Origin: a virus
Length of the DNA: 27,170 nucleotides
Strand: one strand, 5' to 3'
IMG/VR virus record: IMGVR_UViG_3300027721_000065
Location: 1 to 27,170 of that record
Shown: piece by piece, positions 3,535 through 22,807 of the stretch
Layout: each line of letters opens with the position of its first letter
Numbering within the stretch: the stretch's first letter is position 1
Program-made: the position numbers and the translations under genes
The notes under the pieces: model-generated
Seen by the model: the letters and a program-made list of their open reading frames with translations, nothing else
The model's database searches: none
Told to the model about the DNA's origin: nothing

Positions 3535-5526
3535 TCATTTCTTTTTGCGGATTACAACATTTGACCTCCATTCATGCCGACATGACGGCGACGCGGGTTT
3601 CCCGACACCTTGTCCCCACCATCCGCCGCCGCGATCGAACACGGAGTACCCGAGGCGTTGGGAAAGCGTTTCAATTTCGCGGCGTGTCCAGTATCGATCG
3701 AGATCCATCAGTTTCACGCAGAACGGACGCGATGGATGTTCTTCGGTGTTTCTTTGCGTTGTCGGAACCTCCGGCTTCCATTCATACGAATACCGGATTT
3801 CGAACCGCGTCCGCGATGGCTCGTCGACAATCTCACTCACCGGGCGCGTGGGACGCAATCCTCCACCCCTTCCGGTCGCTAAAACTTCCATGTCGACCAT
3901 TTTCTTTATTCGCGCCTCAACGTCCGTGATCGGCCTCCGGATCGCTTTGGCGATGTCCGCCGGAGGTGTCAAAGGTTGACGTTGGAGGATCTCGAGGATC
4001 TTAACGTCGTCGGCTTCGGTTATGTCCGCGAATTTCAACGGCGAAGATTGAACGATGTCGAAATTTTCGCGGTGTTCGCCATATTCGCGAAATGCCGCGA
4101 TCGTGTCATCGAGCGACAAATATTCGTCGAATTGTTCCTCCGCCCCGATCATCGTGTTCACTTCCTCATCGCTCAATCCGTACCCGCTGCGCAGCATCAT
4201 GGACGCTTGTTCGCGTGTGATCTTGCCCTTTGAAAACTCTCGTACTATCCGCGTCATTTGCTGCCATTGGCGACCACTCATCGACCGAAGGTTATCATTC
4301 ACCGCGTCAGAACTTTGAGCGGCGGGAAGGGCGGTTTCCGTGGGCGTGGGAGTGGTTATGTACTTACTTTCATCGATACCCGCTTTTTCCAATATCCATT
4401 CACGCGGAGCGACGGAGGTAATCGCCGCCTCCGACAACTCCAATGCGATTGGTTCGACGGGGATTATTTCCAATTCCGAGGAGGATCCGGAATACGACAA
4501 TAGCCGGGTGAACACCCCTTCGAGGTATTGCTGCTTGTCGTTGACGTATGTATTTTTGAATATTTCATAGGCATCCCGCATCTGCGAACGTGTTCCGAGT
4601 TGGCCGGGTTCCTGAATGCCGAAAAGCGTTGGCGTTGTGATTTGATGCCCGGCGAAAATGTTTTGCTGAATGATCGTATCAACCCGCCCGAAATCCTCTT
4701 TCGTAAGATCCGACGCTCCCAGATCCTCGATGATCGGTTTTTGCCCCGCGTTGTCGACGAACGAGATCATGAATTTTTTCCCGTCGGATCCGCCGAACGT
4801 ATCCCGGAATCGACGATCAAGGTTGCGCTGCTCTTCGACCGGAGGCGTTCCGTTCGGGAGCGTGATCAACTTCGAGGCGTTGAATCCGGTTTGCGCGTTG
4901 CCGAGTACGTGTTTAGAAACCTCGATGTCGGATTCGATGTAGTTCAGTGCTCCCAAATATCCGGGCAAGGCGTAAGCGTCCAACCCCGGGCGGTACTCTT
5001 TTATGTAAAGGATTTGCCTTCCTTCCGGTTGTTTAGGATTGAAAGCGGGAATTGTGTCGATCTTGCCGCGACGATCGCGCCATCCGTCGGCCTTGTACCA
5101 AAATGAGGTGTTATCCGTTGAGGTACGAACCTTCGTGTAATCAATGTGCGACATTGACGCGATGGATCCGCCGACAACCGACCACACGATGTCCAGATAT
5201 GCACCTCCGAAAATCTCGATGTCGAGAGATATTTTCCGCGTAAGTTCTGCGAGTGATTCGTAGGCGTTCGGTTGATCGATAAACCTTTGCGCGGCGGCGT
5301 CGTCTGGGTTGTCGGATTTCCACCCGTTCCCGGTTATGTAGTTCACCTTGCCCTTTACAATCGCGTTATGCTTCGCGCTCTTATTGAAAAGATCGAGCAA
5401 ATAATCCGGATAATCGTTCAACTCCCCGAACTCGATGTATCCTTGCCCTTTGCGTTCGCGGTACTCCGGTTGACGCGCTTCGGCGAACCTTAACACCGCG
5501 ATGTTATTTAAATATTGTTCCGTCAT
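3535..5526 (-). CDS. Portal protein with C-terminal winged-helix-like and Cys/His-rich extension
   Basis: A 663-aa protein; ATG at 5526 overlaps the previous TGA as ATGA. Residues 1-400 have portal features: an early FGELNDYPDYLLDLFN, KHNAIVKGKVNYITGNGW, a helix LTRKISLDIEIFGGAYLDIVW, and a later stem/crown-like part around NIFAGHQITTPTLFGI and LGTRSQMRDAYEIFK. Portals form the dodecameric DNA channel at one capsid vertex and dock the terminase. Beyond the core, residues about 506-555 (DDVKILEILQRQ...RIKKMVDMEVL) resemble a winged helix, and residues 597-655 contain FCVKL (C603), GGGWWGQ and SCRHEW (C649, H651). This last part is reminiscent of MuF/minor-head C-terminal domains, suggesting a portal-minor head fusion. 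Confidence 0.85.
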   Translation of the reverse strand: MTEQYLNNIAVLRFAEARQPEYRERKGQGYIEFGELNDYPDYLLDLFNKSAKHNAIVKGKVNYITGNGWKSDNPDDAAAQRFIDQPNAYESLAELTRKISLDIEIFGGAYLDIVWSVVGGSIASMSHIDYTKVRTSTDNTSFWYKADGWRDRRGKIDTIPAFNPKQPEGRQILYIKEYRPGLDAYALPGYLGALNYIESDIEVSKHVLGNAQTGFNASKLITLPNGTPPVEEQRNLDRRFRDTFGGSDGKKFMISFVDNAGQKPIIEDLGASDLTKEDFGRVDTIIQQNIFAGHQITTPTLFGIQEPGQLGTRSQMRDAYEIFKNTYVNDKQQYLEGVFTRLLSYSGSSSELEIIPVEPIALELSEAAITSVAPREWILEKAGIDESKYITTPTPTETALPAAQSSDAVNDNLRSMSGRQWQQMTRIVREFSKGKITREQASMMLRSGYGLSDEEVNTMIGAEEQFDEYLSLDDTIAAFREYGEHRENFDIVQSSPLKFADITEADDVKILEILQRQPLTPPADIAKAIRRPITDVEARIKKMVDMEVLATGRGGGLRPTRPVSEIVDEPSRTRFEIRYSYEWKPEVPTTQRNTEEHPSRPFCVKLMDLDRYWTRREIETLSQRLGYSVFDRGGGWWGQGVGKPASPSCRHEWRSNVVIRKKK

Positions 5527-19991: not shown

Positions 19992-20357
19992 TTATTTTCC
20001 GAGCGTAATCACTATCTTTTCCTCCGACTTCACATCGATTGATTCTCGTGGTTTCCCGTACACGCGCGTTAATAGCGTTTCGATCGAATATAGCGACCCC
20101 TTTTCGATACTCTTCCGGATTGCCGCTGCGATTGTCTTTTCGAGGACGGTCGCCTTCGGATTCTTCCACACCTCGCCGAGTTCCTCGATCGTCATGGATA
20201 GCATGACTTGAATGGCGTCATTCACCTCCGCGAGGCGGTATCCTTGCGCACGGAGTTCCGAAACGAACTTGCGCGGCCTTCCGTTCGGGTTCATCGTTTC
20301 TCCCTTCGCTGGTCTTGTGAGCGTCCCTCCGTGCGATTGTTTCACTTGTCTTGCCAT
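19992..20357 (-). CDS. Terminase small subunit (putative)
   Basis: A 121-aa product from ATG 20357. The start region GGTLTRPAKGETMNPNGRPR is typical of Bacteroidota phage small terminases and DUF5681-like proteins, which favours this start over an in-frame ATG at 20294 that has a better Shine-Dalgarno-like AAGGGAG. Later helices include DAIQVMLSMTIEELGEVWKN and KTIAAAIRKSIEKGS, then LLTRVYGKPRESIDV, a hallmark 'l.d..yGKp.q' of the family. It would recognise the packaging site and load the large subunit. The large subunit gene follows after a moron cassette and two small genes. Starts 20 bp after the methyltransferase stop. Confidence 0.75.
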   Translation of the reverse strand: MARQVKQSHGGTLTRPAKGETMNPNGRPRKFVSELRAQGYRLAEVNDAIQVMLSMTIEELGEVWKNPKATVLEKTIAAAIRKSIEKGSLYSIETLLTRVYGKPRESIDVKSEEKIVITLGK

Positions 20358-20377: not shown

Positions 20378-21547
20378 TTAAATTACCTCCCCGTTCCGCT
20401 TGATCACCAATGCCGGATCGAGTTTCCGCATCCGATCGACGATTACTTGGCAATATTTCGGATCAAGTTCCATGCCGTAACATTTGCGGCCGAGTTGATG
20501 CGCGGCGACCATTGTCGAGCCGGATCCGAGGAAAAGATCAAGTATAATTTGATTGCTTTTACTGCTGTTTTTTATTGCGCGTTCCGGTAGTGCTATTGGT
20601 TTTTGTGTTGGATGATGCTCATTTTTTTGATCCTTTTTTAATTCCCAAACCGTCTTTTCGTCTGTCGCTCCGAACCATTGCGGCGAGCATCTTGATTTAT
20701 GCGCATATATGCATGGTTCATGATTTGGAATATATTGCGACATAAAAGCTCCAAGTCCGCTCTTGATTTTATACCAACATATAACCGCCCTAACATCTAA
20801 ATCTAATTTCGCAAAAGATGTAAATGTTTCAACCTCCTTTTTGTTTGCGTACCATATATAAAATGCAGAATGATCATGAGTATAGGCAATTGCCAATGAA
20901 AGACTTTCATAGAACAAATTTGTTATATCATCGCCCTTCAGGGTGTCATTTTCGATTCCTTTTCTTTTTTTCTTGTTGTGCCCACCTTCGTAACTAACTC
21001 CATACGGCGGATCCGTGAACACCATGTCGGCCTTGTCCCCATTCATCAACCGCGCCACATCATCCGCGTTTGTGCTATCCCCGCATAACAATCGATGGCC
21101 ACCGATCTCAAACATATCCCCCGGCACGATGTCCGTCGTGATTGTTTCCGGTACTTCGTAATCATCTTCCTCCGCTTCGGGTTCAACCTTAAAATCCGGC
21201 ACATCCAATCCCCACTCATCCAACTTTTCCGCCTCCCAATTATTCGCGAGTTCCTCCCAGTCCCAATCGCCCGTATTTGCGTTTAATCGAATATTTAATT
21301 CCCGCTCATCTTCCGGACTTAAATCAACTATTACGCACTCGACTTCTTTGTAACCAATTTTTTTCAATTCACGTACTCGGAAATGACCTCCGACAATATA
21401 CCCCGTTTGCTTATTGAAAATGATCGGTTCAACCACTCCAAATTTTTCAAGACTTGCTTTTAATTGCTTTTCTTGCTTTTCCGTGCTTTGCCTTGGATTG
21501 TATGGCGCGGGAATTAAGTCGGATAGTTTTTTCTTTTCTATTATCAC
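20378..21547 (-). CDS. ParB-domain / DNA adenine methyltransferase, mosaic gene
   Basis: A 389-aa product from GTG 21547, coupled as GTGA to the HNH stop. Residues 8-75 are a ParB N-terminal-like domain (LIPAPYNPRQ, then YIVGGHFRVREL). Residues 140-389 are a beta-class N6-adenine-type methyltransferase: GDMFEIGGHRLLCGDS (143-158), catalytic DPPY (179-182), HPTQKP (312-317) and SAM motif LFLGSGST (338-345). It modifies phage DNA, likely as anti-restriction. Base composition changes sharply: the 5' end and the central part (about 20540-20990, residues 186-336, covering the target recognition region) are AT-rich, while 21001-21280 and the 3' end are GC-richer like the rest. I read this as recombination swapping segments. 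Target sequence is unknown. Confidence 0.85.
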   Translation of the reverse strand: MIIEKKKLSDLIPAPYNPRQSTEKQEKQLKASLEKFGVVEPIIFNKQTGYIVGGHFRVRELKKIGYKEVECVIVDLSPEDERELNIRLNANTGDWDWEELANNWEAEKLDEWGLDVPDFKVEPEAEEDDYEVPETITTDIVPGDMFEIGGHRLLCGDSTNADDVARLMNGDKADMVFTDPPYGVSYEGGHNKKKRKGIENDTLKGDDITNLFYESLSLAIAYTHDHSAFYIWYANKKEVETFTSFAKLDLDVRAVICWYKIKSGLGAFMSQYIPNHEPCIYAHKSRCSPQWFGATDEKTVWELKKDQKNEHHPTQKPIALPERAIKNSSKSNQIILDLFLGSGSTMVAAHQLGRKCYGMELDPKYCQVIVDRMRKLDPALVIKRNGEVI

Positions 21548-22020
21548 GAGTATCTATTTGAAATGTTCAATTCATGTAATTTTTTATTGTACGCTTCTTT
21601 TGCTTTGTGTTTTTCTTCATAGAATCCTAAATGGTACCATTTTTTGTTATGTTGCAAATATGATCTCCATTTGTTTTCTTTTTTTGCCCAACAAACCCCA
21701 ACCTCGTAACCAGACCTCTTTCTTCTATGAGATTGGTTTTCCATTTGACTAACATATTCTAAATTATTTAATGCGTTATTCAAAATGTTTCCGTCTTTGT
21801 GATTGACTTGCATATCGCTTTTGCCAAGAAAAGCCCATGCAATCAATCTATGTTTACGGAAATAAATGTTCTTTTTTTCGTCACTCACCAATGTTATTTT
21901 CAAATAACCATCTTTGTCCTTCGCTCCTTTAATTTCTCTTTTGCCTTTTTTGTCAAGTGCGAATACTTTACCGCAATCACTAAATGTGTATTTACTGAAC
22001 CCGTCTATTTGTTTTTCCAT
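21544..22020 (-). CDS. HNH homing endonuclease with AP2-like C-terminal domain
   Basis: A 158-aa product from ATG 22020; an ATG at 22035 is an alternative and a TTG at 22047 is unlikely. Residues 6-22 (DGFSKYTFSDCGKVFAL) resemble the NUMOD4 'y.vS~~GrV' start. The nuclease core has RLIAWAFLG (58-66), NHKDGNILNN (73-82) and LEYVSQMENQSH (87-98), typical of HNH_3 endonucleases. Residues 106-150 (VGVCWAKKENKWRSYL, YHLGFYEEKHKAKEAYNKKL) resemble an AP2-like DNA-binding module. The gene is strongly AT-rich (17 of 60 G/C in 21601-21660) and ends coupled to the methyltransferase gene. Such enzymes cut homologous alleles lacking the insertion and spread by repair. It lies in a scar of a ParB-like gene. 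Confidence 0.85.
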   Translation of the reverse strand: MEKQIDGFSKYTFSDCGKVFALDKKGKREIKGAKDKDGYLKITLVSDEKKNIYFRKHRLIAWAFLGKSDMQVNHKDGNILNNALNNLEYVSQMENQSHRRKRSGYEVGVCWAKKENKWRSYLQHNKKWYHLGFYEEKHKAKEAYNKKLHELNISNRYS

Positions 22021-22024
22021 GTTA

Positions 22025-22032
22025 CAAATATA
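22025..22032 (-). promoter_or_regulatory. Possible -7 element (TATATTTG) just before the HNH start
   Basis: TATATTTG matches TAnnTTTG and ends only 4 bases before the ATG at 22020, which would make the mRNA leaderless. No clean TTTG lies at the -33 position (TTTAG is the nearest), so this may be chance in AT-rich DNA. Confidence 0.25.
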
Positions 22033-22052
22033 CATACTATCCCCCAATAAAA

Positions 22053-22118
22053 CTAAATCGTCCGGGGATTGTTCGGGTTCGCTTTGACCTCCGATATTTT
22101 GACCTCTTGAATTTTCAT
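22053..22118 (-). pseudogene. 21-codon remnant of a ParB-like gene start
   Basis: ATG at 22118 overlaps the methyltransferase stop as ATGA, like the other genes of this operon. It encodes MKIQEVKISEVKANPNNPRT plus one residue and then a TAG at 22053-22055. The sequence is the characteristic start of ParB-type domains (K.s.lk.NPnNPR), whose remainder is missing. The next full gene of this type begins again at 21547 with its own ParB start (NPR at residues 17-19). The remnant is GC-rich like the resident genes, and the following DNA is AT-rich. I infer that the resident ParB/methyltransferase gene was interrupted here. Confidence 0.7.
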
Positions 22119-22807
22119 CGTCTGCGTAATATTCGGTTATGAACTACGGATCCGATATACTCCCAATCATCGTTCTGCGTGAACGGAGGGAATACCTCAT
22201 CGACCGCTTTCGATACGGATTCTATCCCCCGGAAATATCCGTCTGGCATATCCAGTCGATTATTGCAATCGTCGATGACCAGATACCCGCCCGGTTTGAC
22301 CAATGGCGCGTAATGCTCAATGTCGGATTTCACCACATCGTAAGCGTGTCCGCCGTCGATGTAAAGGATATTAAATTCGGGTTTACTTCGCGTTAATTCA
22401 ATAATCCTCGGCTCCGTCGATGAACCTTTTAATAAAACAAAATGTTCATGTATTTTGAATTGTTCGTGCAGTTGCATGATGTCGGATAGGTAGTCGCTTT
22501 CCCAATGTCCATCGCTTGAATCAAGCGGCGTTATACCGTACCTTTCGACAAACTTCCCGGATCTTGTCGCCAAATATTCCACGATTGCGAGGATCTGGCC
22601 TCGAAATACTCCTATCTCTAAAAACGTGAAATCCTCCGGCATCTCATCGACGATCCGTTTCCACATCCATAAGAAACACCGTTCGCCGAATCCGAAGGCG
22701 TTGGCCTCGATCCAATCACGGTAAGATTTCAGGAACGGATCGGCGTTCACCTTCGCGGTGTAATCGGCGACGATCTCCGCCATCGGTCGTTTTAGTTCCT
22801 CGATCAT
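22115..22807 (-). CDS. SAM-dependent methyltransferase (Methyltransf_24-like)
   Basis: A 230-aa product; ATG 22807 overlaps the PLOD-like gene's stop as ATGA. Motif I LEIGVFRG (63-70), a SAM/acidic site in ITPLDSSDG (92-100), YIDGGHAYDVV (149-159) and PGGYLVIDD (172-180) place it in the class I methyltransferase group with cephalosporin hydroxylase/Methyltransf_24-like members that act on sugars or small molecules. As the last gene of a glycosyltransferase operon it probably methylates a sugar or caps the glycan made by the three upstream enzymes. The actual acceptor is unknown. Confidence 0.8.
   Translation of the reverse strand: MIEELKRPMAEIVADYTAKVNADPFLKSYRDWIEANAFGFGERCFLWMWKRIVDEMPEDFTFLEIGVFRGQILAIVEYLATRSGKFVERYGITPLDSSDGHWESDYLSDIMQLHEQFKIHEHFVLLKGSSTEPRIIELTRSKPEFNILYIDGGHAYDVVKSDIEHYAPLVKPGGYLVIDDCNNRLDMPDGYFRGIESVSKAVDEVFPPFTQNDDWEYIGSVVHNRILRRR

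Follow-up and report, generated by a model that had tools for sequence, protein, structure and literature searches.

A putative phage homing element joining an HNH endonuclease gene to a substitute 5′ end of its ParB-domain target gene

In a viral contig of 27,170 bases, here called the window, the gene for a ParB-domain methyltransferase breaks off after 21 codons, an HNH endonuclease gene follows, and the methyltransferase gene restarts behind it with a foreign 5′ end; all parts of the locus are read on the minus strand (Table 1). The locus is very probably a homing element in which the HNH gene is combined with a replacement for the front of its target gene, inserting at the NPR codons of ParB1 genes, where the endonuclease would cut. 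Comparison of the sequences established empty and filled sites, a mosaic origin of the restarted gene, joint mobility of the HNH gene and the ParB2 5′ end, and recurrence at the same codons with two types of HNH.

Table 1. Features of the HNH/ParB locus in the window.
Feature	Position	Strand	Remarks
SAM methyltransferase (Methyltransf_24), resident upstream gene	22115..22807	-	TGA stop overlaps stub ATG (ATGA)
Stub, first 21 codons of resident ParB1 plus TAG; displaced native 5′ end	22053..22118	-	
Conserved left edge of HNH element, ATTGGGGGATAGTATGTATATTTGT..ATGG	22017..22048	-	Kept in most HNH-A copies, with differing flanks
HNH-A, homing-type endonuclease	21544..22020	-	NUMOD4-HNH_3-(AP2); start 22020 (or 22035/22047)
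Foreign replacement 5′ end, ParB2 N-domain, codons 1–92	21272..21547	-	90% aa identity to L157/L160, 28% to L245
Right crossover zone, codons of shared W-D-W motif	21271..21285	-	Resident homology starts at 21271
Resident hinge and start of methyltransferase domain, residues 93–182	21003..21271	-	85–90% to L245
Middle of methyltransferase, residues ~183–333, third source	20549..21002	-	76% to L127, 19% to L245; 37% GC
Resident 3′ end of methyltransferase gene, residues 334–389	20378..20548	-	93% to L245
Resident downstream gene, DUF5681 (weak match)	19992..20357	-	84–92% DNA identity to L083–L085

The original prediction, made from the window sequence, had described an ATGA shared by the SAM methyltransferase stop and an ATG at 22118, a ParB-type start closed by a TAG after 21 codons, an AT-rich HNH/AP2 reading frame behind it, and a second ParB start at 21547 opening a full ParB-methyltransferase gene, and these features were all found in place. 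The 21-codon frame, hereafter the stub, translates as MKIQEVKISEVKANPNNPRTI and is closed by the TAG at 22055–22053. In its maximal reading the HNH ORF spans 21544–22047, and its GC content is 32.5% compared to 49.7% for the window. The start codon at 21547 is a GTG that overlaps the HNH stop by 4 nt and opens a protein of 389 aa with ParB_N and N6_N4_Mtase domains, which matches phrog_498 (ParB-domain DNA methyltransferases) over nearly its whole length (E 4e-119). The upstream SAM methyltransferase displayed 83–93% aa identity to the copies in the HNH-less contigs L083–L085, and the downstream DUF5681 gene is, judged by its position, possibly the small terminase subunit. A separate IMG/VR record, L082, was 100% identical to the window over 10,053 bp, arrangement included. 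This identity, and the succession of stub and HNH gene in ten other distinct contigs, rule out misassembly of a single contig as the origin of the layout.

The relatives lacking the HNH gene, retrieved via the upstream methyltransferase and via ParB, revealed the uninterrupted locus. In L083, L084 and L085, which are 83–90% identical to the window, homology stopped at positions 22056, 22066 and 22053, respectively, and a break that in three relatives coincides with the last codon of the stub or misses it by no more than about 10 nt rules out coincidence. The ParB frame is uninterrupted in all three, as in L083, which reads MKIQEVKISEVKANPNNPRTIRDEKFRKLVESIKTFPEML..., and a peptide identical to that of the stub opens the intact ParB1 of L083 and L245. 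As the original prediction had expected of phages without the HNH gene, the 21-codon frame continues in frame as ParB1 in L245, L083, L085 and L246. At the DNA level, L245 was 96.8% identical to the window over the first 63 nt, gave no match across the ParB domain, and resumed with 84% identity over 21271–21000 and 85% over 20550–19928. The restart of homology at 21271 was common to L245, L085 and L246 (84–96%), and many other relatives also start there. The more distant relatives L086, L092, L101, L111, L115, L120 and L127 (approximately 65–69% DNA identity) harboured a complete ParB1-methyltransferase gene at the corresponding position. The presence of HNH-A is sporadic among otherwise similar genomes, as seen for the window versus L083, L085 and L245, and in a second backbone, where it was found in 3 of 49 scorable relatives.

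The restarted gene is a mosaic. Residues 1–92 of the window ParB are approximately 90% identical to those of L157 and L160 and 28% to L245, residues 93–182 are 85–90% and residues 334–389 93% identical to L245, and the short stretch of residues 93–115 is 87–100% identical at the aa level to L245, L085 and L246, being 100% in L246. In the tree of the N-terminal part (residues 1–92) the window is located inside the ParB2 clade with a support of 100/100, and a grouping with L245 was rejected (p-AU 1.9e-44). In the tree of the C-terminal part (residues 97–182) the window and L245 form a clade (100/99), and a grouping with L158 was rejected (p-AU 1.6e-4). The two trees thus conflict, and the N-domain of the window belongs to another ParB_N subtype than that of its resident relatives. 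In the predicted structure (mean pLDDT 78) the crossover falls at residues 92–96, in a loop that follows the last helix of the ParB-like domain; the PDB matches listed for this structure were DNA/RNA methyltransferases, that is, they concern the half other than ParB. The view that the resident gene was invaded and its 5′ end replaced by DNA brought in with the endonuclease consequently largely holds, since residues 1–92 are of the donor type and residues 93–182 and 334–389 are resident. The accompanying jump in composition is also present, although not as one block: 21272–22048 constitutes the HNH element and approximately 20549–21002 a separate replacement. The latter segment lies between the DPPY and SGSTM motifs of the methyltransferase, and its different source led us to reject the whole AT-rich stretch as a single import; it is a separate swap of the probable target-recognition region, outside the HNH element.

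The architecture around this gene is variable. The ParB N-domain with its hinge was joined to many different C-terminal modules in L083 (5699–7080), L085 (597–1040), L246, L157, L160 and L172, the modules being a methyltransferase, short tails of 60–80 aa or, in L083, a separate gene of 262 aa. As judged from these arrangements, the N-domain and hinge are a modular hub at this locus. ParB N-domains were swapped also in lineages without an HNH gene, with five label changes on the tree of the C-terminal part.

Relatives of the HNH gene with 85–86% identity were found in phages of a different backbone with 31–34% GC. In L157, L158, L160, L161 and L162 a ParB1 stub (MKLVKISEVKPNPKNPRIN or MQIVKISEVKPNPKNPRVN, each followed by a stop, or close variants) precedes the HNH gene and a ParB2 start; L159 duplicates the arrangement of L158 and is not counted among the five. 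Among these five phages the HNH gene (500 nt) was 99–100% and the ParB2 5′ end (276 nt) 98–100% identical, with identities of 44–88% for the upstream flank, 81–98% for the stub, 75–92% for the hinge and 43–53% for the downstream flank. Such a distribution of identity indicates that the HNH gene and the 5′ end of ParB2 form a single mobile unit with sharp edges. The divergence between the window and L157 was nearly equal for the two parts (83% identity for HNH and 84% for ParB2), as expected if both travel together.

The surroundings of the unit belong to the recipients. Up to its end the stub follows the backbone in which it is found, with 93% identity of L157 to L366, 90% of L160 to L373 and 92% of L162 to L407, the latter phage in each pair being HNH-less. 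Likewise, the C-terminal modules joined to ParB2 are of recipient origin: L158 is 95% identical to L382, L160 97–99% to L340 and L389, and L172 99% to L366. All four reference phages carry ParB1 N-domains, and L382, L389 and L366 are HNH-less; the N-terminal parts of L158, L160 and L172 do not exceed 37% identity to any ParB1. When the gene upstream of ParB was followed through 78 relatives in the second backbone and the cases counted by eye, 46 had an intact ParB1 start and 3 had stub, HNH and ParB2, while for the remaining 29 the stretch scanned contained no recognisable ParB start. The original prediction had taken a short frame kept as a peptide gene in relatives to speak against a scar. 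Such frames do, on their face, occur in L157–L162, yet those phages carry the HNH element, and where the HNH gene is absent from that backbone ParB1 is complete (46 intact versus 3 interrupted).

In the HNH-A protein NUMOD4 and HNH_3 both scored above the Pfam gathering score, and the AP2 match was weak. The HNH motif is intact, with N74, H75, D77, G78, N82 and N83 invariant in six homologs, and a dN/dS of approximately 0.06 relative to L157 indicates strong purifying selection. The sequence ATTGGGGGATAGTATGTATATTTGT upstream of HNH-A is strongly conserved even where the proteins are only about 65% identical. Within this left edge, TATATTTG resembles the −7 box of Bacteroidota, which suggests a candidate promoter or start region borne by the element. 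A DNA pattern search for the left edge returned no copies beyond those already known. Among GenBank phages, the ParB-methyltransferase had no match of at least 60%, the SAM methyltransferase only two distant matches (31%), and the HNH matches were below 60% save for two records at 60–80%. An HNH alignment scan of bacterial and archaeal genomes gave two weak matches (36–43%), in Treponema and a Clostridia assembly.

The scar that the original prediction had proposed is there, only it is not a one-off event; the insertion belongs to a recurrent element with a nearly fixed insertion point that carries a replacement 5′ end. A stub followed by an HNH gene was found in ten further distinct contigs of several backbones and with two HNH types, and a replacement ParB start was present in 9 of the 10. 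The second type, HNH-B in L172 and L175, is a NUMOD4-HNH_3 protein with 44% identity to HNH-A over 102 residues and a different C-terminal end. Both of these contigs have the stub MKLVKIS(E/D)VKPNPKNPRIIFVIV with its stop, then HNH-B and then ParB2 with an ATGA overlap; they are 99.3% identical in HNH-B and 96.4% in ParB2, compared to 45% upstream and 47% downstream. In the HNH-B relatives L415 and L417 the stubs end with NPNNPRLK and a stop, and in L417 a rescue of the ParB1 type follows. The stretch 2918–3560 of L415, the same in L416, contains a ParB1 stub and HNH-B with no ParB gene after them, and the rescue part seems to have been lost or never carried. Counted from the NPR codons, the distance to the edge of the element is 13 nt for six copies of HNH-A and either 7 or 12 nt for those of HNH-B. 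In all 11 distinct filled alleles the distance is 7–13 nt, except for 42 nt in L163, which has NPS there. L163 contains a relative of HNH-A (71%) behind its own longer stub, with a rescue of the ParB1 type. Stub (3883–3963) and rescue (4477–4566) of L163 are both ParB1-type, with numerous silent differences around NPNNP, a pattern that would fit a rescue copy no longer open to attack by the endonuclease.

Three contigs, L015, L164 and L196, displayed HNH-A in front of ParB2 with no recognisable ParB1 stub. In the HNH-less L216 the preceding gene runs directly into the same ParB2 start as in L015; by this uninterrupted junction HNH-A was seemingly inserted at the ParB2 start codon in L015, with ATGATA at both ends. 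The unit of HNH and ParB2 5′ end could have arisen from an L015-like site. Endonuclease-like genes of two further types were located directly before ParB2 starts in L010 (11–742), L014 (636–1367), L207 (1004–1735), L187 (3357–4004) and L013 (3418–3990), and from these positions the ParB2 start looks like a hot spot for HNH genes.

The formation of the locus may be depicted as follows. The HNH endonuclease would cut an uninterrupted ParB1 gene at the codons just past the NPNNPR motif, as the nearly fixed insertion point suggests, and during repair the element would be copied from a donor phage in the same coinfection. The left side would retain the first 19–21 codons of the recipient up to the break. 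On the right side pairing could occur only at the conserved hinge after the ParB domain (the W-D-W codons, window 21271), since there is no DNA homology between the N-domains of ParB1 and ParB2; the N-domain of the recipient ParB1 would thereby be lost and that of the donor ParB2 put in its place. The product would be a stub, an HNH gene and a chimera of ParB2 and the resident gene that restarts within the HNH stop codon (GTGA or ATGA), and in the window the chimeric gene would be expressed by a restart at the GTGA overlap. With this restart the broken gene would be rescued as an open frame and the ParB1 site would be gone. ParB2 differs in sequence from ParB1 throughout; the rescued allele is presumed to be resistant to cutting and the chimera to be active. 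Since the stub ends in a TAG and a new start follows the HNH gene, splicing need not be invoked to explain the gene.

Ordinary phage mosaicism, by which the HNH gene and the ParB2 start were pasted in at random and spread by homologous exchange with the endonuclease idle, is an improbable explanation. N-domains and C-terminal modules are indeed shuffled widely at this locus, also in phages without a nearby HNH, and homologous exchange could yield part of the pattern once one phage had the element. However, the left edge is found at nearly the same codons in 11 of 11 filled alleles despite usable homology farther upstream, the site is common to two HNH types, the low dN/dS reveals an HNH gene under strong purifying selection, and the unit is 98–100% identical across backbones whose flanks share 43–92%. 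Against the reading as a homing element count the swaps of ParB N-domains in lineages without an HNH gene, the missing stubs of L015, L164 and L196, the missing rescue of L415 and the 42-nt spacing in L163; by the stubless contigs and by L415, which lacks the ParB gene, a rescue is not always present.

The two remaining alternatives concern the stub. That it encodes a working leader peptide, or is a small gene in its own right, selected for translational coupling, and no scar, would agree with its ATGA coupling to the upstream gene and with its being open, at 19–26 codons, in 11 of 11 filled alleles, but wherever the frame was found in HNH-less relatives a complete ParB1 begins with it, and its sequence follows the recipient backbone. 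As the insertions appear to be recent, selection is not required to keep the stub open, and we regard this alternative as very improbable, although a remnant could have an additional coupling role. Least credible of all is a tandem of ParB genes of which the first was later truncated, the resident 5′ end never being replaced. A second complete ParB start does follow the stub, but residues 93–115 are the resident's own and residues 1–92 are not, and no relative with ParB1 and ParB2 in tandem was noticed among the loci read. A tandem duplication was rejected since the sequence past 21271 belongs to the resident. The homing element joining an HNH gene to a substitute 5′ end remains the preferred reading.

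Free-standing phage homing endonucleases are usually intergenic, and insertion into a needed gene is expected to destroy that gene. The element described here suggests how a phage HEG that is not part of an intron or intein may attack conserved coding regions, by carrying its own repaired front end. It also offers a tangible route by which phage genes could exchange domains, one for which filled and empty alleles are already known, and the same design of stub, HNH and substitute start occurs in several unrelated phages. With less assurance than for the window locus itself, we favour the general view that phages carry natural cut-and-rescue homing elements, in which diverse HNHs would attack ParB-domain genes at their conserved NPR codons, be accompanied by a replacement N-domain of divergent sequence and thereby drive the exchange of ParB N-domains between unrelated phages and between C-terminal modules.

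Related arrangements are known from fungi and phages. Fungal mitochondrial mORFs carry foreign C-termini in atp6, atp9, cox2 and nad3 of Allomyces and Glomus (PMC3630166), and Tremella introns carry N-terminal duplications (PMC7315562). In these, as in the phage element, an endonuclease ORF and a foreign gene end are found in a gene, a hybrid is made and the native end displaced; the mORFs, however, are mitochondrial and replace the C-terminus, and the N-terminal cases in Tremella are described as introns, whereas here the phage HNH is free-standing and the hybrid has its own start codon. For T4-like phages, the part of the source available (PMC2988022) describes seg and mob genes as free-standing, sporadic HEGs with co-conversion of flanks, of which mobE and mobA are located inside genes and split them into two coding regions; a carried replacement end is not described in that part, whereas here a foreign 5′ copy is carried and the native start is left as a stub. 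In HEG islands (Barth et al. 2023, PMC10448857) phage nuclease genes mark the edges of exchange and carry cargo, but an island has at least 2 HEGs plus cargo genes and no discrete boundaries, in contrast to one HEG and a partial gene with sharp edges here. In the open-licence literature searched, a scope that leaves most subscription papers outside, no precedent was found for a phage HEG with a replacement 5′ end.

The closest parallel is found in the WHO elements of Torulaspora and Lachancea yeasts (Coughlan et al. 2020, PMC7282813), in which an endonuclease gene is accompanied by a resistance-conferring 3′ end of FBA1; homing replaces the end of the target, makes a chimeric gene and leaves a displaced native fragment, and diverse endonucleases share the one target. 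The phage element likewise joins an endonuclease gene to a replacement end of the target and leaves a native fragment, the 5′ end of the recipient. WHO elements, however, concern the 3′ end of a nuclear gene, encode an intein-like domain and a zinc finger and have been shown to cleave (PMC7282813), whereas here an HNH is combined with the 5′ end of a phage ParB gene and cleavage is deduced. The window protein contains HNH_3, NUMOD4 and AP2 and not the intein-like and zinc finger domains of the WHO family. The phage element would thus work like WHO in a mirror-image layout and would not be WHO by descent, the likeness implying no common ancestry. Its logic matches that of synthetic cleave-and-rescue drives and of the yeast WHO elements, here in phages, where homing is testable by coinfection.
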